Of a stretch of DNA of 33,363 nt, positions 3,797 through 31,094 are shown piece by piece. Each line of letters opens with the position of its first letter. Position 1 is the first letter of the stretch. A model generated the notes under the pieces. It was given only the letters and a program-made list of their open reading frames with translations, did no database searches and had not been told where the DNA came from. The DNA is taken from contig JACQEX010000059.1 of NCBI GenBank assembly GCA_016200345.1, positions 1-33,363 of the forward strand, given 5' to 3'. The DNA is from Nitrospinota bacterium (GTDB lineage: Bacteria > Nitrospinota_A > UBA7883 > JACRGQ01). The position numbers and the translations under genes were made by a program.

Positions 3797-6223
3797 TCAG
3801 AAAAGGGGGCGGGGTTCCGGGTTGGCGAAAGTCTTTACCGACATCTTTCCGTCTTTCACCATCAGCGAGACGTCCCCCTCGTCCTGCGTCTGCAATATTT
3901 CCAGATTCGCGTCGTGAAGGGCTTGCATTGTTTTTTTCGCCGGCATCCTATATCGGTTTAGTTTTCCCACGCTGATCACCGCGATTTTCGGCGAGACCGC
4001 CAGTAAAAAGGCGGGGGTCGTGGAGGTGCCGGAGCCGTGGTGGCCCACGTGGAGCACCTCCGCCTTTGGAACGGCGTTTTTTTTCATCAGAAAATTTTCG
4101 GTCTCTTTTTCGCAGTCGGCGGGAAGAAGCGCTGTTCTCCCCTCCGTGGCAAGGAGTATCATCAGGGAAATGTTGTTGTTCTTTGCGTTGGGGTGCTCTT
4201 TTATAAATTCCACGGAAGGATGTATAACGGAAAAATCCGCGACGCCAGAGAGCGGAAGGCGCATGCCGGCGTGGAGGCCAAACCTCGGGATGTCCGCCTC
4301 GTCCGCAATCGCCCGTAGCGCCGAAAGCGCCTTGTGCGGCTCGCCGTTGTCCATATACCGCGCGACCTTTATCCCCTTCATCACGGAAAAAAGTCCGCCC
4401 ACGTGGTCCATGTCCCCGTGCGTGGCTATCACCGCGTCCAGTTTTTTTATTCCAAGCCTTCTTAGCTCCGGCAAAATCACAATTTCGCCGAGGTCGTAGT
4501 CGCCTATCCTCACGCCGCCGTCTATCAAAATATTTTTCCCGTCCTTAAGCATGATTAGGGTGCTGTCCCCCTGCCCCACGTCGATAATCCTGACCTCCGA
4601 AAATGTCCTTTCTGCGGGCCAGTAGAAGGCGAGGAGGGCCGCGATAAGAACCACAGCCGACGACGCGAAAAGGCGCGACCGAAAAACCCAAAGAAAAAAA
4701 ACCGCGTAAAACAAGGCCGAGAGCCACATTGCGGGCGGGGGGCCGGAAAAGGACAAAAGTTTGGAAGAGCCAAAAAAACCGGCCGTGAACTCTATGCCGG
4801 AAAAAGCGACTGACGAGGCCCAGGCAACTGCGGAGCCAAGCGGCTCCCATAAATTTCCGAGGGCGTGAGCGACAAAGACGGAGGGCACCGCGAACATGGC
4901 TATCGGGACGGCGATAATGTTGGCCGGAACGGAAAACGCGTTCACTTCGTTAAATGTGCGCATAAGAAGCGGCGCCGTTACAAACGCAAGGAGAATGGAG
5001 ATTTTGGCTACATCCCAAAAAAATTCCGCCGTTTTCGAGAATGCGTCTCGCTTTTCCAAGAGTCCGTCCAAAGGTTCCGCTTTGCCCCTTCCCCTTAGCA
5101 ACATAAGGGCGATGGCCGTCACCGCCGTGTAGGACATAAGGAACGAAAAGCTGGAGAGCGCGCGCGGATCCAAAAGAAGGATTGCAATAGCGGACACGGC
5201 AAGGGAATTGATTATCTCCCCCTCCCTTCCAAAAATCATGGAGAGGAAAAAAATCGTCGCCATAATTCCGGCCCTTCTGGAGGGGATGTTCGCGCCCGTC
5301 ACAAGCACGTAGAGAACCACGGCAAGGATGCAAAAGAGCGCGGCCCATTTTCTGTGCGCGCCCGATTGCGTCCACTCCGGTCGGAGAAGGTAAAACAGGT
5401 AAAAAAAGAAGGCGTAAAAAATTAAATATGAGAACGCGCTTATGAAGCCGACGTGCAGGCCGGCAACGGCCAAAAGATGCGCTAGGCCGGATGAGGAGTA
5501 GGCCCGTTTTTCCCTTGGAGTAAGTGCGCCCCTTGTTCCGATAGTCATGGCGGATGCCGAGGCAGACTCGACCTTCGGGTATTCCCTCACGATAAAATCG
5601 CGGATGTTTCGCCTAAGCCTTTCGGCTGTTGAGAGGGGTCTCCAGGCTCCGGCCTCGGAGATAATGGAAAGCGAATCCTTTTTTGAAAGATTTGTCACCA
5701 CGGTTATGCCGGACTCCCTGTAATATTCCTCCTTGTCGAACCCGCCGAAATTTTTGAACCCTATGACAGGTTTTAGGTAGGCGTTGGAAAGCAAAACCCT
5801 GTCGCCCGGAATCGGAGGCATGGCGTTGTAATAAAGTCCCACTTGCACCAAACCCGAGGCCTTTTGTCCGTTTAGTTTTTCGACGGAGAGAGCAAACCGC
5901 CCGCCCCGTTTGTAATATTCAATCGGCCCTTTTACGATTCCCTCGACCTCGCACTTTCTTATCGGCACCATTCTGTTTACGTGGTCGGGCGCGTTCAAGG
6001 CGGCGTTTGAAAAAGAGATGCTCAACAATCCCGCGACGGCGAAAATGGGAATTAGCGGTTTTCTGGAGATTTGAATCGGGGCGAGCGCGACAATTAAAAC
6101 CGAGACGCCCGTAAGAATGGTAACTAGCAATGGGTTAGGGAATCCCAAACCGCCGACGACAATTCCGGCGACGACGGCCAGCGCGAAGTATAATGACGGA
6201 AGACGAAGCAACTCCCCATTCAT
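3797..6223 (-). CDS. comEC: DNA internalization competence protein ComEC/Rec2
   Basis: An 808-residue inner-membrane protein with the full ComEC domain order: an N-terminal membrane and DUF4131-type region, a central multi-helix Competence domain (containing GLAHLLAVAGLHVG near residue 240), and a C-terminal metallo-beta-lactamase-like domain from about 540. The last domain has DVGQGDSTLI, the metal-site motif THGDMDHVGG (601-610) and GHHGS (727-731). ComEC carries single-stranded DNA across the inner membrane during natural transformation, and its lactamase-like domain is thought to be a nuclease. It lies 36 bases downstream of a secreted phosphoesterase gene. No frameshift or missing metal ligand is seen, so the protein looks functional. 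A pilus retraction ATPase and PilC are encoded elsewhere in the window. Confidence 0.93.
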   Translation of the reverse strand: MNGELLRLPSLYFALAVVAGIVVGGLGFPNPLLVTILTGVSVLIVALAPIQISRKPLIPIFAVAGLLSISFSNAALNAPDHVNRMVPIRKCEVEGIVKGPIEYYKRGGRFALSVEKLNGQKASGLVQVGLYYNAMPPIPGDRVLLSNAYLKPVIGFKNFGGFDKEEYYRESGITVVTNLSKKDSLSIISEAGAWRPLSTAERLRRNIRDFIVREYPKVESASASAMTIGTRGALTPREKRAYSSSGLAHLLAVAGLHVGFISAFSYLIFYAFFFYLFYLLRPEWTQSGAHRKWAALFCILAVVLYVLVTGANIPSRRAGIMATIFFLSMIFGREGEIINSLAVSAIAILLLDPRALSSFSFLMSYTAVTAIALMLLRGRGKAEPLDGLLEKRDAFSKTAEFFWDVAKISILLAFVTAPLLMRTFNEVNAFSVPANIIAVPIAMFAVPSVFVAHALGNLWEPLGSAVAWASSVAFSGIEFTAGFFGSSKLLSFSGPPPAMWLSALFYAVFFLWVFRSRLFASSAVVLIAALLAFYWPAERTFSEVRIIDVGQGDSTLIMLKDGKNILIDGGVRIGDYDLGEIVILPELRRLGIKKLDAVIATHGDMDHVGGLFSVMKGIKVARYMDNGEPHKALSALRAIADEADIPRFGLHAGMRLPLSGVADFSVIHPSVEFIKEHPNAKNNNISLMILLATEGRTALLPADCEKETENFLMKKNAVPKAEVLHVGHHGSGTSTTPAFLLAVSPKIAVISVGKLNRYRMPAKKTMQALHDANLEILQTQDEGDVSLMVKDGKMSVKTFANPEPRPLF

Positions 6224-13090: not shown

Positions 13091-13222
13091 ATGAACCAAG
13101 AAAATAACAGTGGCGAGACAAGTACAAAAATCTACCTTTTCAAGGGTAAACAAATCCGAAAAACTCTCCATCAAGGAGAGTGGTGGTTTTCGGTGAATTT
13201 GGGGTCAGACCTTGACATTTGA
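13091..13222 (+). pseudogene. Bro-N (phage antirepressor-type) 5' fragment, cut by a palindromic element
   Basis: The frame from ATG 13091 reads MNQENNSGETSTK and then IYLFKGKQIRKTLHQGEWWF. The second part closely follows the start of BRO-N domains (IxxFKxKxIRKTxHxxEWWFSV). After WWFSVN the homology stops and the frame enters the palindrome that starts at 13201, ending at a TGA inside it. Bro-N proteins are DNA-binding antirepressor-like proteins found in phages and as orphan chromosomal genes. A probable internal piece of a Bro-N gene reappears at 13443, so the gene was broken and partly lost. It is not expected to be functional. Confidence 0.7.
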
Positions 13223-13262
13223 CAAAACGCGCACCTAATGTCAAATGTCAAGGTCTGACCCC
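13201..13262. repeat. GGGGTCAGACC palindromic element, copy 1
   Basis: Two perfect 24-base inverted arms (13201-13224 and 13239-13262) flank a 14-base loop. The left arm begins GGGGTCAGACCTTGACATT. The right end is followed by a second copy of its terminus: CTGACCCCCACCAC occurs at 13255-13268 and again at 13280-13293. The element sits inside a Bro-N gene. No transposase is nearby, so it is a non-autonomous MITE- or REP-like element. Confidence 0.85.
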
Positions 13263-24200: not shown

Positions 24201-24986
24201 ATGTCCCGCGCAAGGTTCGGCCAACATTTTCTGGTCGACGGCGAGATAATCCAAACAATCATTGAATCCGCCGAAATCGGCGCCGACGATATCGTCGTGG
24301 AAATCGGCCCCGGAAAAGGGGCGCTTACCTCCCATTTGGCCGGATGTTCTGGAAACCTCACGTTGTTGGAGCCGGATCGGCGACTTGCCGACGAGTTGCG
24401 GCGCGCCCATAAAAACGCGCGCGTTCTGGTGCAAAGGGGGGAGGCGATAAACTTTGCCGGGTTTCCCGCGCATGTGGTGGTCGTCAGCAATCTTCCCTAT
24501 TACGCCTCCGTGCAGATTTTTAAGCATCTCTCGGAAAACAAGGGGGCGATTTCCCGGATGGTGCTGATGTTCCAAAAAGAGGTGGCCCAGCGCATATCGG
24601 CGGGGCCGGGGGGACGGCACTACGGCTCGCTTTCGGTTTGGAGCTCGTATAACTGGGAGATGGAGCAGGTTGTCACCGTTCCGGCCAAGGCGTTTGCACC
24701 GCCCCCGAAGGTGGAGTCGGCGGCGCTCCGTTTTAGGCCGCGCCTAAAACCGCCGGTGGACGGGGACGAGCAGGAGTTGTTTAAGCTGGTTCGCTCCTCC
24801 TTCGTGCTAAAGCGGCGGACGCTTGTGAATAATTTAAAAAATATTTATCCGGCGGACGCGTTGAATGCCGCGATGGAGTCCGCCGACCTCGGCCCGAAGG
24901 CCCGCGCGGAGGAAGTTTCGCTGGAGCAGTTCGCCAAGCTCTCGCAGTTGCTCGGCTCCCCCCCGTTGGAGCGGAAAATTTTGTAA
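24201..24986 (+). CDS. ksgA: 16S rRNA (adenine1518-N6/adenine1519-N6)-dimethyltransferase
   Basis: A 261-residue RsmA/KsgA that dimethylates two adjacent adenines in helix 45 of 16S rRNA late in small-subunit assembly. Motifs: FGQHFLVD at the N-terminus, the SAM loop EIGPGKGALT (34-43), motif IV NLPYYAS (97-103) and a C-terminal domain with FVLKRRTLVNNLKN. The ATG at 24201 begins just before FGQHF, as in the family. Its last 90 bases before the final two codons (24889-24978) are duplicated at 27747-27836. Length is normal, so the enzyme looks intact, ending LERKIL. Confidence 0.95.
   Translation: MSRARFGQHFLVDGEIIQTIIESAEIGADDIVVEIGPGKGALTSHLAGCSGNLTLLEPDRRLADELRRAHKNARVLVQRGEAINFAGFPAHVVVVSNLPYYASVQIFKHLSENKGAISRMVLMFQKEVAQRISAGPGGRHYGSLSVWSSYNWEMEQVVTVPAKAFAPPPKVESAALRFRPRLKPPVDGDEQELFKLVRSSFVLKRRTLVNNLKNIYPADALNAAMESADLGPKARAEEVSLEQFAKLSQLLGSPPLERKIL
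24889..24978 (+). repeat. 90-bp direct repeat, upstream copy (inside ksgA 3' end)
   Basis: These bases, from TCGGCCCGAAGG to GAGCGGAAAA, recur at 27747-27836 with a single difference (CAGTTG against CAATTG). They encode the last roughly 30 residues of KsgA. The repeat may be an attachment-site-like duplication or the scar of a local duplication. Confidence 0.95.
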
Positions 24987-25030
24987 TTGGAATAAAGCAA
25001 GAATGATTGACAAAAAATGCGAGGAACCAG

Positions 25031-25171
25031 TCAACCCGCCAATGCGGGCATTTCTTCCCAAATTTTATTTTCCAAAACCCTACCAGCTTTCTTTTTAAAT
25101 ACGCCACCCCACTGCTTGAAGAAAAAAGGCACGTCCTTTTGCAAACACTGGTTTTTTATTTCTAGGGGTAC
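25031..25171 (-). pseudogene. Gp37/Gp68-type (DUF5131) C-terminal fragment
   Basis: Read on the minus strand, 46 codons from the palindrome edge to a TGA encode [20 protein letters not shown] and then [17 protein letters not shown]. This matches the C-terminal end of the phage Gp37/Gp68-like DUF5131 family (IRDQC...[10 protein letters not shown]...GRxLDGxxWxEMP). The large N-terminal part with its three-cysteine motif is gone: the reading frame upstream is palindrome sequence. These proteins are usually encoded next to TcmP, a fragment of which lies at 27311-27643 on the same strand. Confidence 0.72.
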
Positions 25172-25242
25172 GGGGTCAGACCTTGACATTTGACAAACTT
25201 TCAAAAAACATACATGAATGTCAAATGTCAAGGTGTGACCCC
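25172..25242. repeat. GGGGTCAGACC palindromic element, copy 2
   Basis: Arms at 25172-25195 and 25219-25242 pair with one mismatch (GTGTGACC instead of GTCTGACC) around a 23-base loop. The loop, the flanking GGGGTAC on the left and ATTCTGCC on the right are shared almost exactly with copy 3 at 27649, so copies 2 and 3 are recent relatives. The left edge abuts the DUF5131 fragment. Confidence 0.85.
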
Positions 25243-25254
25243 ATTCTGCCTTTT

Positions 25255-25333
25255 GATTTGACTATTTTTACCGGAGCGCATATCATTTCGTCATGGCAAA
25301 GGGGTCAAGCAGGGGTCATATGGGAAATGTCGG
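25255..25333 (+). promoter_or_regulatory. Duplicated promoter segment A
   Basis: TTGACT (25258-25263), a 17-base spacer and TATCAT (25281-25286) form a good sigma-70-type promoter. About 79 bases around it recur at 26813-26892. Downstream of the -10 box are two GGGGTCA motifs, the same terminus as the palindromic elements. The first gene downstream starts at 25452, leaving a leader of about 160 bases. Confidence 0.65.
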
Positions 25334-25451
25334 TTAATATATTTTTAGGTTCTGGGCTACGGTAATTGCAATCCACTTATACGGAGGTATCGAAATCAGG
25401 AGAATGTCATCTAGGAAATATTGGCTTACATGGCTTAAAAAGGGAGAGTAA
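25334..25451. other. Leader region before the first exported-protein gene
   Basis: AT-rich, no coding frame recognised. AGGGAGAG at about 25441-25448, just before the ATG at 25452, serves as ribosome-binding site. Confidence 0.45.
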
Positions 25452-25862
25452 ATGAAAAACTATCTTTTACCTTTAGCCTTAATATCCGCGTTTGTAATGT
25501 CCGCATACGGCGGTTCTAATTCTCCGGCGTTGTTCGGCCAAACAGAAAATTTGACAATTGGCACGCCTACGCTCACGACTACAAGGCAAAATGTCCTCAA
25601 TATTGCCTCAAACAAAACATTCGGCGGAGTCCCGTTCTGCTTTCTTATTAACCGCGTGGCGGCTGCCGGTATGCTACGGGACTATTCCGACAAGCAGATT
25701 GAAAATGGTCTCTGCATGACCTCGATAGAGGTAGTTTGGGCCATCGGCACCGACGACTCGTTCAAGGAGGACGTGTGCGGGCAGGCGGCTCAATATATGA
25801 TGATAGAATTCAATAAACGGTTCCCAGGCCGGTCACCAAATGAAGTAATCGGCAAGTGCTGA
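25452..25862 (+). CDS. Small exported cysteine-containing protein, unknown family
   Basis: A 136-residue protein with a probable signal peptide (MKNYLLPLALISAFVMSAYG) and a mature part holding four cysteines (C63, C88, C109 and the last residue C136), which could form two disulfides in the periplasm. The central region (FGGVPFCFLINRVAAAGMLR; DYSDKQIENGLCMTSIEVVW) looks globular and mostly helical. I do not recognise the family. It lies in the AT-richer zone between the two ksgA-end repeats, behind duplicated promoter segment A, and its composition differs from the housekeeping genes, suggesting horizontal origin. Confidence 0.65.
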   Translation: MKNYLLPLALISAFVMSAYGGSNSPALFGQTENLTIGTPTLTTTRQNVLNIASNKTFGGVPFCFLINRVAAAGMLRDYSDKQIENGLCMTSIEVVWAIGTDDSFKEDVCGQAAQYMMIEFNKRFPGRSPNEVIGKC

Positions 25863-25999
25863 GCCTGCGATTTAACAGCTGAACTGTGGTTTTTTATACA
25901 TCATTGGGACTTCTTTTGAATGCGTAATAGTCGTGCAACACATAAGAAATAATAAGAGCCGATTGGGTCGGTTGCTGTAAGACAATTAAAGAGGATATT

Positions 26000-26626
26000 A
26001 TGAAAACGATATTTATCTTTTTAATCATTCTTTTATCCCCTGCGTTTGCATGGGCTGGTGACATAGGAATACAAGCTGGGACAACTATTGTCGGTCACGA
26101 ATATAACGAGGTCCTAAACCGTTACATCGAACGAAAAATAACTATCTGGGGCTTTTCAGACAATACATTCTCAATAAATGGGGGAACCACATTTGGAGAT
26201 GCCGACGTATATTTCCCCAACGAAAAAAAGACTTTGGAAAAATTGGTTTGGGTAATGGATAAATCGTTGGAGTGGTCTGATATAGCAATTAAGAACAATG
26301 CGTCAGCCTCCAAACTGTTTGGCTGTTTTTTGGGCGAGGAAGGATTTAAGGCCACATCATGTCCATCTGACAAGCTACTTGCTGCGGTGAATCACAGTGG
26401 ACGCATAATATTCAGCTTTAAATCTTCCGTGATAGGAGGAAAGGCGATACCAGAATTGAAGGCTAATTTTTTCAGTTATGCTATAGGCTCACTCCCCGAC
26501 CGCGAGGCCGCTATTTTAATTCCTTATGAAGAGATTAAAAAATTGAAAATCGCCGTCCAAAATATAGGCGAAGCGATAAAATGGGCCAAAGAACGTGCAA
26601 AAAAGGAAAAAGAGTTGTTCAAATAA
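26000..26626 (+). CDS. Exported protein of unknown family
   Basis: A 208-residue protein with a clear signal peptide (MKTIFIFLIILLSPAFAWAG, cut probably after A19). The mature part starts with strand-like sequence (DIGIQAGTTIVGHEYNEVL), has two close cysteines (C109, C121) and ends with a highly charged helix (IKWAKERAKKEKELFK). No family is recognised. GAGGATATT before the ATG gives a ribosome-binding site. It follows the 25452 gene after 137 bases with no evident promoter of its own, so both may be read from promoter segment A. AT-rich codon use supports foreign origin. Confidence 0.65.
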   Translation: MKTIFIFLIILLSPAFAWAGDIGIQAGTTIVGHEYNEVLNRYIERKITIWGFSDNTFSINGGTTFGDADVYFPNEKKTLEKLVWVMDKSLEWSDIAIKNNASASKLFGCFLGEEGFKATSCPSDKLLAAVNHSGRIIFSFKSSVIGGKAIPELKANFFSYAIGSLPDREAAILIPYEEIKKLKIAVQNIGEAIKWAKERAKKEKELFK

Positions 26627-26812
26627 ACTGCACGAAGTCATTTGCCGAATATCGGTTTATATATTTTTTTATTAAAAGCCCCTAGAAAGGGCCGGGGTTG
26701 CTACGCTCCACCATTAAAGGCAAATATGGGCACTGGGTGGAAGAGATAGTTTTCTGAACCCCAGCGTCTTCCTCATTTCAAAAATCTGCTACCGTCCCGT
26801 GACGGGCGGCGT
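26627..26812. other. Intergenic region before promoter segment B
   Basis: No gene is recognised. Two hairpins are visible: GCCC-ctagaaa-GGGC (near 26679) after a T-rich run, and CCCGT-g-ACGGG (near 26796). Neither is followed by a proper T-tract on the plus strand, so terminator function is unproven. Confidence 0.4.
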
Positions 26813-26892
26813 GATTTGACTATTTTTACCGGAACGTGTATCCTTATCTTCATGGCAAAGGGGTCAAGCAGGGGTCATATGGGAAATGTCGG
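26813..26892 (+). promoter_or_regulatory. Duplicated promoter segment B
   Basis: TTGACT (26816-26821), a 17-base spacer and TATCCT (26839-26844). The segment repeats segment A (25255-25333) almost base for base apart from the -10 region and one extra base. It carries the same pair of GGGGTCA motifs. It is positioned to drive the gene at 26935. Confidence 0.6.
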
Positions 26893-26934
26893 CTTATAAA
26901 ACTAGGCTCTAATGCTGGGAGAGGAAACAAGCCT

Positions 26935-27246
26935 ATGAAAAAACTTCTGACAGTTTTTGGCCTGATTGCGATTTTGTTCCTACTCTCCACACAGGTTACG
27001 ATTTTTGTAATTCCTCCTATCGGAATACTTCCGGAAGGGAAAACCCTCGTAATTTCACGGTTAAACAAGACAAATTTTATTGATAGTGCAGATTCTATGT
27101 GTGAACGATTACAAGGAAACGTGAATTTGTTGTGTCGGGCCATGTCTATGGGAACTGTAGTAAAAATTGCAAAAGTTTATGCAAGGCTTCCCTATAGTGA
27201 GTGGCTATACCTTATTTCGACAGGGGGGAAGAAGTATGATAAATAG
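26935..27246 (+). CDS. Small membrane-anchored or exported protein, unknown family
   Basis: A 103-residue protein with an N-terminal hydrophobic segment (residues 4-28), acting either as a signal peptide or an anchor, then a small domain with two cysteines (C56, C67) in SADSMCERLQGNVNLLCRAM. The cysteine spacing could allow an intramolecular disulfide. No family is recognised. The ATG at 26935 follows GGGAGAGG at a workable distance; the frame is open further upstream but only through the promoter segment. It is the third exported-protein gene in the repeat-bounded zone and has its own copy of the promoter segment. Confidence 0.6.
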   Translation: MKKLLTVFGLIAILFLLSTQVTIFVIPPIGILPEGKTLVISRLNKTNFIDSADSMCERLQGNVNLLCRAMSMGTVVKIAKVYARLPYSEWLYLISTGGKKYDK

Positions 27247-27270
27247 GTGGAAAGTATAAAAAACAGTGTT

Positions 27271-27321
27271 GGGGTCATGTTGGTGTTGGGGTCATGTTTG
27301 ACTCACTGACTTATTTTGACG
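27271..27321. repeat. Half-element related to the palindrome at 16905
   Basis: GGGGTCATGTT occurs twice (27271 and 27288). The second is followed by TGACTCACTGACTTATTTTG, which tracks the left arm at 16905 with only a few differences. No matching right arm is found, so this is a single-sided remnant. It supplies the stop codon that ends the TcmP fragment. Confidence 0.6.
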
Positions 27322-27643
27322 CATGATCTGCACATGGCAAGGAAACCATAAAGGCAAACAAGGGTGATGGAGGTGAAAAAGGGTTGCTTTTTCGTTTTTC
27401 CAGTTCAGACAAGCCGTCAACAAAAGAAGTGTTAAAAAAATATGAGTTAATTTTAGGGCCGGTTTGCACTGAAGCAAGTTTCTCCTTAAGGTGGGTAAAG
27501 ATATCGGTATTCTGTTCGATAAAAACGCATTGAACGTTTCCCGCCTGCCATTGGTTTCCTAGCCTGGCAATTGTTTTGTCCGCAGAAGTAACTGCGGCAA
27601 CAGGGGAGCCTGACGGAAAATTAGTGTATTCGCCGGGGCCTGG
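27311..27643 (-). pseudogene. TcmP (three-Cys-motif partner protein) internal fragment
   Basis: On the minus strand a 110-codon open frame starts at the palindrome edge with GPGEYTNFPSGSPVAAV, then NVQCVFIEQNTDIFTHLKEK, then LSELEKRKSN and PSPLFAFM. This follows the TcmP pattern: (FAGPGEYxxGxxGSPxxAL, FxFIExxxxxFxxLxxxL, then a strand ending FxFxDPFG). The N-terminal region and everything after the PLFAF strand are missing. Both breaks coincide with palindrome-family sequence (27649 and 27288-27320). TcmP proteins are encoded next to Gp37/Gp68-type proteins, the other remnant on this strand. Confidence 0.7.
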
Positions 27644-27648
27644 GGTAC

Positions 27649-27719
27649 GGGGTCAGACCTTGACATTTGACACACTTTCAAAAAACATACATGAATGTCA
27701 AATGTCAAGGTCTGACCCC
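27649..27719. repeat. GGGGTCAGACC palindromic element, copy 3
   Basis: Perfect 24-base arms at 27649-27672 and 27696-27719 around a 23-base loop nearly identical to that of copy 2. Its right terminus is tandemly repeated: CTGACCCCATTCT at 27712-27724 and again at 27725-27737. The left edge abuts the TcmP fragment; the right edge is 9 bases from the second copy of the ksgA end. Confidence 0.88.
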
Positions 27720-27746
27720 ATTCTCTGACCCCATTCTGCCTCGGGA

Positions 27747-27836
27747 TCGGCCCGAAGGCCCGCGCGGAGGAAGTTTCGCTGGAGCAGTTCGCCAAGCTCT
27801 CGCAATTGCTCGGCTCCCCCCCGTTGGAGCGGAAAA
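27747..27836 (+). repeat. 90-bp direct repeat, downstream copy (ksgA 3'-end pseudogene fragment)
   Basis: It matches 24889-24978 at 89 of 90 positions. In the ksgA frame it continues past LERK into a Lys/Pro-rich tail instead of stopping. That frame ends at a TGA (27941-27943) that overlaps the start region of the following HTH gene. It could therefore be the original 3' end of ksgA rather than the copy. Confidence 0.92.
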
Positions 27837-27942
27837 CAGTTAATCGGCAAAAATCGCCAAAGACGCCAAAAGCGCAAAAAAGGCCAATAAGGCCAAAAGC
27901 GCAAAAGCCCTCCGCCCTCTTCCGTTGTATAAAAGGGGCATG

Positions 27943-28353
27943 ATGACAAACAGAATTCAGAATACAGAAGTCAGGATACAGAACGGGAGCGAGGGCAGGC
28001 CTGAGACGCTTGCGTTGCCTTCCGCCTCGGAATTAAGGATTCAACAATTTGAGCAGATCCAAATGGCGAGTTCCTATTTGATGAAAAGGGCGAAAAGGGG
28101 GAGTGTGCGCGCGGTCAGGATGCTTTTGAATTGCGGCAAGCACGCTTTTAGCCTGCTTGAGGCCGAGGAGGGGACGGAATGGCTGGCGCCTGGAAAGTGC
28201 GCCGACATGATTGGCGTGTCGGTCAGGACAATCCAAAGGGCCGTGGAGTCCGGGGCGTTGTGCGTCTCCCGAACGTCCGGGGGCCACAGTCGTATTCAGA
28301 AAAAGGATTTTGAAAAGTGGCGAACCGTTCAAAAACCCCCCGAAAATGACTGA
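27943..28353 (+). CDS. Excisionase-like helix-turn-helix protein
   Basis: A 136-residue protein. The C-terminal 55 residues are an excisionase/MerR-like winged HTH: WLAPGKCADMIGVSVRTIQR, then AVESGALCVSRTSGGHSRIQ and KKDFEKW. The N-terminal 75 residues are polar, then helical, with no known motif. Such domains serve as recombination directionality factors or as small repressors. The ATG at 27943 has AGGGG four bases upstream; ATG 27940 and TTG 27925 are alternatives. It follows the downstream copy of the ksgA end directly, and no integrase gene is in the window. Plasmid or phage regulator is an alternative. Confidence 0.7.
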   Translation: MTNRIQNTEVRIQNGSEGRPETLALPSASELRIQQFEQIQMASSYLMKRAKRGSVRAVRMLLNCGKHAFSLLEAEEGTEWLAPGKCADMIGVSVRTIQRAVESGALCVSRTSGGHSRIQKKDFEKWRTVQKPPEND

Positions 28354-28532: not shown

Positions 28533-31094
28533 ATGCCTAATTACCGCAGGTTTATAATTAAACCTTCGTTGCCAGAAAAGCTTAAACCGCTAAGCGACAT
28601 CTCCTACAACCTGTGGTGGACTTGGCACCCGGACGCGGTGAACCTTCTTCGCAGAATAGACCCCGATTTATGGGAAAAACTGTACCACACGCCCACAAAA
28701 GTGCTTGGCTCAATCTCGCAGGAACGCCTGAGGGATTTGGAATACGACGACGGTTTCATAACGCACATGGAGCACGTCGCCGGGGAGCTGAAAGAGTACA
28801 TGAATGAAAGCACGTGGTTCGAGGAGTTTTCGGTCGAAAGCTGGAAAAAAGAAAACCACATCGCCTACTTCTCGTTTGAGTTCGGGTTGGACGAGTGCCT
28901 GCAAATATATTCCGGCGGCCTCGGCGTGCTTGCGGGCGACCACTTAAAGTCGGCCAGCGACCTTGGCATACCCATCGTGGCGGTGGGCCTTGCCTATTCG
29001 CACGGATATTTCATGCAGTACCTCAACAGGGACGGCTGGCAGATGGAACAACTGCCCGAGAACGACTTTTACCTCCTTCCGCAAAAACGCGCCAAGGCGG
29101 CGGACGGCTCGATAATTAAAATCGAGGTTCCTTTTCCCGGCAGAAAAGTCACCGCCCAGCTCTGGCGCGCCCAGGTCGGTCGCGTTCCGCTCTATCTTCT
29201 GGACACGAACATAGCGGATAACTCCCCGGAGGACAGGGCGATAACGTCGCAACTTTACGGCGGCGACATAGAGATGAGGATAAAGCAGGAGATTCTGCTC
29301 GGCATCGGCGGCGTTCGCGCCTTGGAAAAGCTTGGGATAAACGTGTCGGTCCACCACATGAACGAGGGGCACGCGGCCTTCGCGAGCATCGAGCGCATGT
29401 TGCAGTGCATGAGGAAGTTCGGGTTCACCTATCCCGAGGCCCGGGAGGCGATAGTCTCGTCCACGGTTTTCACCACGCACACGCCGGTTCCGGCGGGCAA
29501 CGACAGGTTCGAGCGCTGGATGCTGGAAAAATACATGACGCCGGTTCTGGAAGGGAGCGAGATACATTCCGCCGAGGTTTTGGCCATGGGAAGGGAAAAC
29601 CCGGCCAACGACAAGGAGCTTTTCTGCATGACCGTTCTGGCCCTGCGTTTGTCGGCGGCAAGCAACGGCGTATCCAAACTGCACAGCGTGGTTTCGCGCA
29701 AGATGTGGCGGAACATCTGGCCCGACGTGCCGCTTAGCTCGGTGCCGATCAAGTCCGTCACGAACGGAATCCACATCAGGTCGTGGATTTCCGAGGAAAT
29801 GCGAAACCTGTTCGACAGGTATCTGGGGGAATCGTGGATTAGCAAGCCGGGCGAGGACGCCACTTGGAAGCGCATAGTGAAGATTCCCGATTCCGAATTG
29901 TGGCGCACGCACGAAAGGCGAAGGGAGCGGCTCGTCGGCTTCGTCCGCAAGAGGCTGGTGGAGCAGTTGCGCCGAAAGGGCGGCTCCGAGTCCGAAATAA
30001 TCGAGGCGCAGGGGGCGCTGGATCCGGAGGCGCTGACCATCGGGTTCGCCCGCAGGTTCGCCACGTACAAACGAGGAAGCCTTATTTTTCACGACGAGGA
30101 GAGGCTGGCAAAAATTCTCAACAACAAAGAGAGGCCGGTGCAGATTATTTTCGCGGGCGCGTCCCACCCGCGCGACATGGACGGAAAGGACATAATCAAG
30201 CAAATCATCCACGTCGCCGCCAAGGAGCAGTTTAGGAGAAAGATAGTTTTTGTCGAGGGGTACGACATAGACGTGGCGCGCCACCTTGTGCAGGGTTGCG
30301 ACATCTGGCTGAACAATCCGCGCAGGCCGATGGAGGCCAGCGGAACAAGCGGGATGAAGGCCTCGGCCAACGGAGCGTTGAACCTTTCCATATTGGACGG
30401 ATGGTGGGACGAGGGGTACACGCCGGACGTCGGCTGGGCCATCGGCGCGGGCGAGGAATACGAGGATCAGGCGACGCAGGACTCGGTGGAAAGCCGGGCC
30501 TTGTACGACATTCTGGAGCGGGACGCAATTCCGTTGTACTACGAAAAAGGGTCGGACGGACTGCCCCGCGGGTGGGTTTCAAAGATGAAGTCCAGCCTCA
30601 CGAAGCTGAACGCGCAGTTCAACACCAACCGGATGTTGCGCGAATACACGGAAAAATTCTACCTTCCGCTCGGATTGCGCTGGCAAAACTATGTGGAGGG
30701 GGATCCCGCCATAATCAAGGGTTTTGCGAAATGGAAGCAGGGCCTGGAGGCGGAGTGGAAAAACATAAAGCTCGTCGAGGTTTCCGACGGCGTGGTGGAC
30801 GTGTTCAAGGTCGGCGAGATGAAGCAGGTTTCCGCCATGGTTTCGCTCGGCAAAATTAAGCCGACCGACGTCGTGGTGGAGTGCTACTACGGGCCGATGG
30901 ACCACGTGGGGGACATCAAGGACGGCGAGACGGCCATTTTGGAGTTCGAGGGGATAGCGAAGGACGGCCTTTGCAAATTCTCCGGAAACATTCCGTGCGA
31001 CAACGCTGGTCTTTTCGGGTTTGCGGTGAGGATCTTGCCGAACCACGAGAATTTGTTGCACAAGTGGCTCCCCGGCCTGATAACCTGGGGTTAA
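28533..31094 (+). CDS. glgP: Alpha-glucan (glycogen/maltodextrin) phosphorylase
   Basis: An 853-residue phosphorylase of the shorter bacterial/archaeal alpha-glucan phosphorylase family (TIGR02094 type), with the N-terminal DUF3417 domain (LSDISYNLWWTWHPDAVNLL). It releases glucose-1-phosphate from alpha-1,4-glucans. Substrate and cofactor motifs: YFSFEFGLDECLQIYSGGLG, VHHMNEGHAAF, TTHTPVPAGNDRF and, at the pyridoxal phosphate site, GTSGMKASANG with K609 the Schiff-base lysine. GAGAGG precedes the ATG at a normal distance. The gene stands alone; no glycogen synthase is near. Its 3' end runs directly into the TTTCGTG inverted repeat. Confidence 0.95.
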   Translation: MPNYRRFIIKPSLPEKLKPLSDISYNLWWTWHPDAVNLLRRIDPDLWEKLYHTPTKVLGSISQERLRDLEYDDGFITHMEHVAGELKEYMNESTWFEEFSVESWKKENHIAYFSFEFGLDECLQIYSGGLGVLAGDHLKSASDLGIPIVAVGLAYSHGYFMQYLNRDGWQMEQLPENDFYLLPQKRAKAADGSIIKIEVPFPGRKVTAQLWRAQVGRVPLYLLDTNIADNSPEDRAITSQLYGGDIEMRIKQEILLGIGGVRALEKLGINVSVHHMNEGHAAFASIERMLQCMRKFGFTYPEAREAIVSSTVFTTHTPVPAGNDRFERWMLEKYMTPVLEGSEIHSAEVLAMGRENPANDKELFCMTVLALRLSAASNGVSKLHSVVSRKMWRNIWPDVPLSSVPIKSVTNGIHIRSWISEEMRNLFDRYLGESWISKPGEDATWKRIVKIPDSELWRTHERRRERLVGFVRKRLVEQLRRKGGSESEIIEAQGALDPEALTIGFARRFATYKRGSLIFHDEERLAKILNNKERPVQIIFAGASHPRDMDGKDIIKQIIHVAAKEQFRRKIVFVEGYDIDVARHLVQGCDIWLNNPRRPMEASGTSGMKASANGALNLSILDGWWDEGYTPDVGWAIGAGEEYEDQATQDSVESRALYDILERDAIPLYYEKGSDGLPRGWVSKMKSSLTKLNAQFNTNRMLREYTEKFYLPLGLRWQNYVEGDPAIIKGFAKWKQGLEAEWKNIKLVEVSDGVVDVFKVGEMKQVSAMVSLGKIKPTDVVVECYYGPMDHVGDIKDGETAILEFEGIAKDGLCKFSGNIPCDNAGLFGFAVRILPNHENLLHKWLPGLITWG

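Follow-up and report, generated by a model that had tools for sequence, protein, structure and literature searches.

The question of how small defence systems move without a recombinase of their own goes back to the description of insertion with long target duplication (Nobusato et al., 2000) and is still debated. Such insertions are described for restriction-modification genes in Helicobacter (PMC1643837, PMC3031569). A second precedent is provided by cis-mobilizable elements (CIMEs), integrase-less islands that have kept their att repeats (PMC5704250, PMC3146451). The locus analysed here, at the 3' end of ksgA, is one of five of similar layout in a single genome and resembles both systems. 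As in the target-duplication insertions, the insert is small, is often composed of restriction-modification genes, is flanked by long direct target repeats and is devoid of a recombinase; here, however, the target is a gene 3' end in four of the five cases, and the repeats at one of them, nth, are different alleles, of which the foreign one is attached to the gene. With CIMEs and other integrative elements of gene 3' ends the locus shares a 3'-end insert, a gene left whole, att-like direct repeats and the lack of a remaining integrase, but the inserts of the present genome measure only 1.0–2.8 kb, occupy five unrelated sites and are flanked by repeats of 35–220 bp, and no related integrase-bearing element was seen here. 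The anatomy of the present case fits target-duplication insertions and CIMEs alike and falls fully within the definition of neither. On our best reading, the ksgA case belongs either, as a variant, with the long-target-duplication insertions or with the integrase-less islands flanked by att repeats. The interest of this genome is that it holds five such insertions and that the nth repeats are distinguishable alleles, which makes it possible to test copying of the target against arrival of a foreign end from sequence alone.

The ksgA locus and its direct repeat

The DNA analysed, a stretch of 33,363 nt hereafter called the window, corresponds to contig C73 in a MAG of 113 contigs (genome 2.24 Mb) from a groundwater-type bacterium, and its nearest relatives among the genomes compared are Nitrospinota. 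The ksgA gene (24201–24986, plus strand; RrnaAD, Pfam PF00398, E 1e-56) is intact, and its product ends in LERKIL* and is 61 % identical to the orthologue in G001, a genome of the same genus. Its end, as far as the last codons before the stop, forms the first copy of a 90-bp direct repeat (24889–24978, plus strand), the second copy of which (27747–27836, plus strand) starts 2858 bp downstream. The copies agree at 89 of 90 positions, with a single G/A difference, exactly where the original prediction had placed them. Translated, they differ synonymously in one of 30 codons, and their last codons diverge: copy 1 is followed by a stop and has a family-typical tail length, and copy 2, the distal end, which reads ...GCGGAAAACAG, continues into repeats. 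Because the 90-mer of the ksgA end has only these two occurrences in the whole 2.24-Mb genome, chance is excluded.

The segment between the copies had also been described as foreign-looking, and this was borne out both by its composition, about 40–47 % GC as against 52–59 % in the flanks, and by comparison with G001, the sole other genome of the genus returned by the search; no same-species empty allele was found. In G001 a glgP-like gene follows about 115 bases after ksgA, with one ksgA end and no insert. The order in the window is ksgA, the segment, the second repeat copy, an HTH gene and then the glgP-like gene (28533–31094, plus strand), an open reading frame similar to the G001 orthologue that directly follows ksgA. 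Since the two genes are direct neighbours in G001, the 2.8-kb segment was, as judged by gene order, inserted at the ksgA 3' end without damage to the gene. At 66 other ksgA loci, each with 1.5 kb or more of downstream sequence, no repeated gene end was seen; ksgA is therefore no recognized integration hot spot, and its end was rejected as a common attachment site.

Contents of the insert

Two gene fragments, both on the minus strand, lie towards the borders of the insert. The 3' end of a DUF5131 gene, the remainder of which is absent, adjoins repeat copy 1 (25031–25163; Pfam PF07505, E 2.8e-9, model positions 198–243 of 243, above the cut-off), and an internal piece of tcmP lacking both start and end adjoins the second of two hairpin elements (about 27379–27641; NCBIfam TIGR04474, E 7e-5, model positions 40–120, under the curated cut-off). 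The original prediction of two broken mobile-type genes is right in that both are broken, but they are better described as pieces of a phage/defence-type pair. Like the TcmP-DUF5131 pair, the fragments occupy one strand in the order expected of the pair; unlike it, both genes are broken here and the sequence between them has been replaced by repeats and three ORFs. We read the segment as a tcmP-DUF5131 pair that was probably broken afterwards, by hairpin-associated events.

The three ORFs, all on the plus strand, are predicted to encode small proteins of secreted type. ORF1 (25452–25862, 136 aa) and ORF2 (26000–26626, 208 aa) have signal-peptide-like starts and can still be called orphans, as the original prediction had called all three: no relative of ORF1 was detected, including in the plasmids and viral contigs searched, and none of ORF2 in the 145 genomes searched or in viral contigs. 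ORF3 (26935–27246, 103 aa), by contrast, belongs to the phage-associated family phrog_37309 (E 8e-43); relatives 56–66 % identical occur in 12 viral contigs, in one of which the family member adjoins a repressor-like ORF. The tcmP fragment had no relatives in the plasmids searched. No integrase was found in the insert among ORFs or Pfam, NCBIfam and PHROG matches, a search that very short remnants could escape.

Further loci of the same layout

The genome was surveyed for unique direct repeats of at least 28 bp, at least 80 % identical and spaced 1–15 kb apart, in 1.73 Mb of sequence (77 % of the genome, window included). Exactly five were found, with repeats of 35–220 bp and inserts of 1.0–2.8 kb. 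Every one of them encloses defence-type genes: C5-methyltransferase systems in three cases, a PADLOC candidate in one and the tcmP-DUF5131 remnants in that of the window (C73, 90 bp). Four of the five lie at host gene 3' ends. Besides ksgA these are the end of a sigma-54 (NtrC-type) regulator gene including its stop codon (C20, 57 bp), with a type II restriction enzyme and a C5 methyltransferase between the copies; that of the endonuclease III gene nth (C70, 41 bp), with a C5 methyltransferase and an HNH protein; and that of an ilvE-type aminotransferase gene (C77, 35 bp), with the PADLOC candidate defence protein PDC-S13 (E 1.6e-129). The fifth repeat (C91), of at least 106 bp and with a hairpin, encloses an XRE regulator, a restriction enzyme and a C5 methyltransferase. 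Three of the five brackets hold one of the nine C5 methyltransferases, for which random placement gives an expectation of about 3e-7, a figure that serves as a guide because the thresholds were picked after the first cases had been seen. Around five other methyltransferase loci no direct repeats of at least 15 bp were found, so the repeats are not general to methyltransferase loci.

The recurrence of the layout on four other contigs bears on the possibility that the ksgA arrangement was produced by metagenome assembly. The MAG consists of 113 contigs, and a 90-bp repeat can exceed an assembler's k-mer; yet both junctions lie in non-repeated sequence, the copies are one base apart, and the alternative path through the graph, which gives a circle plus an empty site, would itself presuppose this mobile segment. 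We regard an artefact as scarcely credible.

Two repeat pairs with a spacing below 1 kb and unnamed cargo, on C79 (644 bp) and C106 (665 bp), are not counted among the five. The pair on C79 (locus L266; 12959–13018 and 13601–13662), a 63-bp direct repeat of 86 % identity 644 bp apart, surrounds two small ORFs of unknown family, has a GGGGTCAGGTCTTGCA repeat alongside and is possibly a sixth case. On C15 (locus L209) a small ORF is flanked by a 139-bp direct repeat of 99 % identity (83–221 and 653–791).

Native and foreign gene ends

At nth the tail encoded by the gene-attached copy is K-LGVGRSR*, that of the distal copy is K-IGVMRHR*, and both have their stop at an equal position. The Nth proteins of G001, G005, G006 and G008 have the C-terminus xGVxRHR*, and the distal DNA and the G001 nth end have AGACATAGATA in common. 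The distal tail is genus-typical and LGVGRSR* atypical, so that the displaced copy is the native one and the gene-attached copy is foreign. A foreign attached end means in turn that a gene end came in with the incoming DNA, which plain duplication of a target would not yield; nth shows what a Campbell-type or att-type event leaves behind, and it is the one locus from which the polarity is read. At the ilvE-type locus on C77 the gene-attached copy is the family-typical end, so that the polarity of nth is not repeated there. In our reading the ends at ksgA would have the same polarity as at nth.

These comparisons weigh on the reading of the insertions as plain ones with a long target duplication, by which resident DNA would have been copied to both sides and no foreign gene end would have arrived. 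The anatomy matches, with repeats of 35–220 bp and a cargo of restriction-modification genes, and given that the data come from a single-strain MAG, the ksgA case may have arisen by plain duplication. A copied target would, however, be identical at the outset, whereas the nth copies are different alleles, native-like at the distal and foreign at the attached position; and the copies at the regulator locus, with a stop at the end of both, differ in three codons, all synonymously, where an untranslated copy would be expected to drift at all positions. For these insertions we consider plain duplication unlikely.

A gene end carried in by an att site would also leave a foreign gene-attached end. 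This is one argument for a decayed element of the cis-mobilizable kind, in which attL and attR were kept and a site-specific integrase was lost or acted from elsewhere; further, such elements classically insert at gene 3' ends, and there are known islands that retain att repeats but have no integrase (PMC5704250, PMC3146451). Set against this are five inserts of 1.0–2.8 kb with no integrase found in any of them, the complete lack of repeated ends at the 66 other ksgA loci, and five unrelated target genes with no evident common core, which argue against one classical site-specific integrase. We give this explanation, too, a low probability. The original prediction of an integrative element stands in so far as the insertion leaves ksgA intact, four more such loci exist and the nth ends are att- or Campbell-like; the insert's lack of an integrase, an HTH gene that is not the element's excisionase (see below) and the other ksgA loci speak against it.

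Proposed mechanism

Our current working hypothesis, to which we would give about an even chance, is that a small defence cassette entered in a Campbell-like way, by means of short homology to the gene end, and was later scrambled by hairpin repeats. A foreign cassette, originally tcmP-DUF5131, would have entered at the ksgA 3' end, the 90-bp copies being its borders. The incoming DNA, for which a circle or an equivalent form is the simplest assumption, would have brought its own ksgA end, and one exchange within the shared end would have attached the gene body to this imported end, with the cassette next and the displaced resident end last; ksgA stayed whole. As no recombinase is present in any insert, host short-homology recombination, or an enzyme supplied from elsewhere, would have carried this out, and other defence genes would have come into this genome by the same route on at least four further occasions. 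The middle of the ksgA insert would later have been broken up by, and given way to, REP-like hairpin elements and passenger genes.

It is tempting to extend this, as a tentative possibility that we hold to be rather less likely than not, to a lineage-wide route, recombinase-free or trans-acting, that delivers small defence cassettes to core-gene 3' ends and leaves border repeats which are allele pairs recording the donor. If true, resident gene ends would be exchanged for those of the donor at unrelated core genes.

Hairpin elements and other dispersed sequences

The three repeat elements that had been noted in the insert are indeed repeats, but they are two copies each of two elements, both dispersed genome-wide. 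Element H is a REP-like hairpin with 24-bp arms, of which copy 1 (25165–25247) abuts the DUF5131 break and copy 2 (27642–27740), with a TGACCCCATTCT tail, links the tcmP fragment to repeat copy 2. Element R occurs on the plus strand at 25254–25339 and 26797–26898. About a dozen copies of H and eight strong copies of R are present in the genome, two of the latter in the ksgA insert. A tandem 16-bp repeat seen on inspection of the sequence (27266–27298, plus strand) may be the remnant of a further RAYT/REP-type unit. Dispersed hairpins with 24-bp arms and RAYT-like start remnants are features shared with REP/RAYT repeats; unlike those, no Y1 transposase gene was found here beside H or R, and the one inspected Y1 transposase gene with upstream repeats (C53) has a repeat that differs from both. 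Another H hairpin, of a shorter-loop type, lies elsewhere in the window at 13201–13262.

Copy 2 of the ksgA end is cut directly by H at its left and by the leader of the HTH gene at its right, and elsewhere in the genome H elements are found at junctions of gene fragments. Both observations would suit a local duplication or template switch that put a ksgA fragment downstream independently of the arrival of the cassette, with hairpins making the junction. Such an event leaves unexplained the brackets at nth, ilvE and the regulator, which are without H and always surround defence genes, and we judge it highly improbable. H hairpins as the cause of the direct repeats in all cases were likewise rejected, as C20, C70 and C77 lack them. 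In the Campbell-like scheme the hairpins would act only after entry.

The gene just outside the insert that had been called excisionase-like encodes an HTH_17/BldC-like protein (27940–28353, plus strand), whose match to the excisionase-type HTH family is at the cut-off and no better. Its leader (27847–27942, plus strand) recurs on C21, C38, C74, C77, C91 and C98, at several of them with an HTH paralogue, so the gene is not specific to the ksgA insertion. By its sequence relationships it is a member of a dispersed host family, and it was rejected as the excisionase of the element. In the window and at the six other loci the leader is made up of A-rich repeats in 9-bp phase and precedes an HTH_17 gene or what remains of one, and at four of the seven an H hairpin is located at most about 130 bp upstream.

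Copies of R are also associated with a further restriction-modification locus (L111; C45, 25500–30851), where two inverted copies (2405–2475 and 5135–5214) enclose genes for a type II restriction enzyme and a C5 methyltransferase, with another hairpin sequence, of the GGGTCAGG type, alongside.
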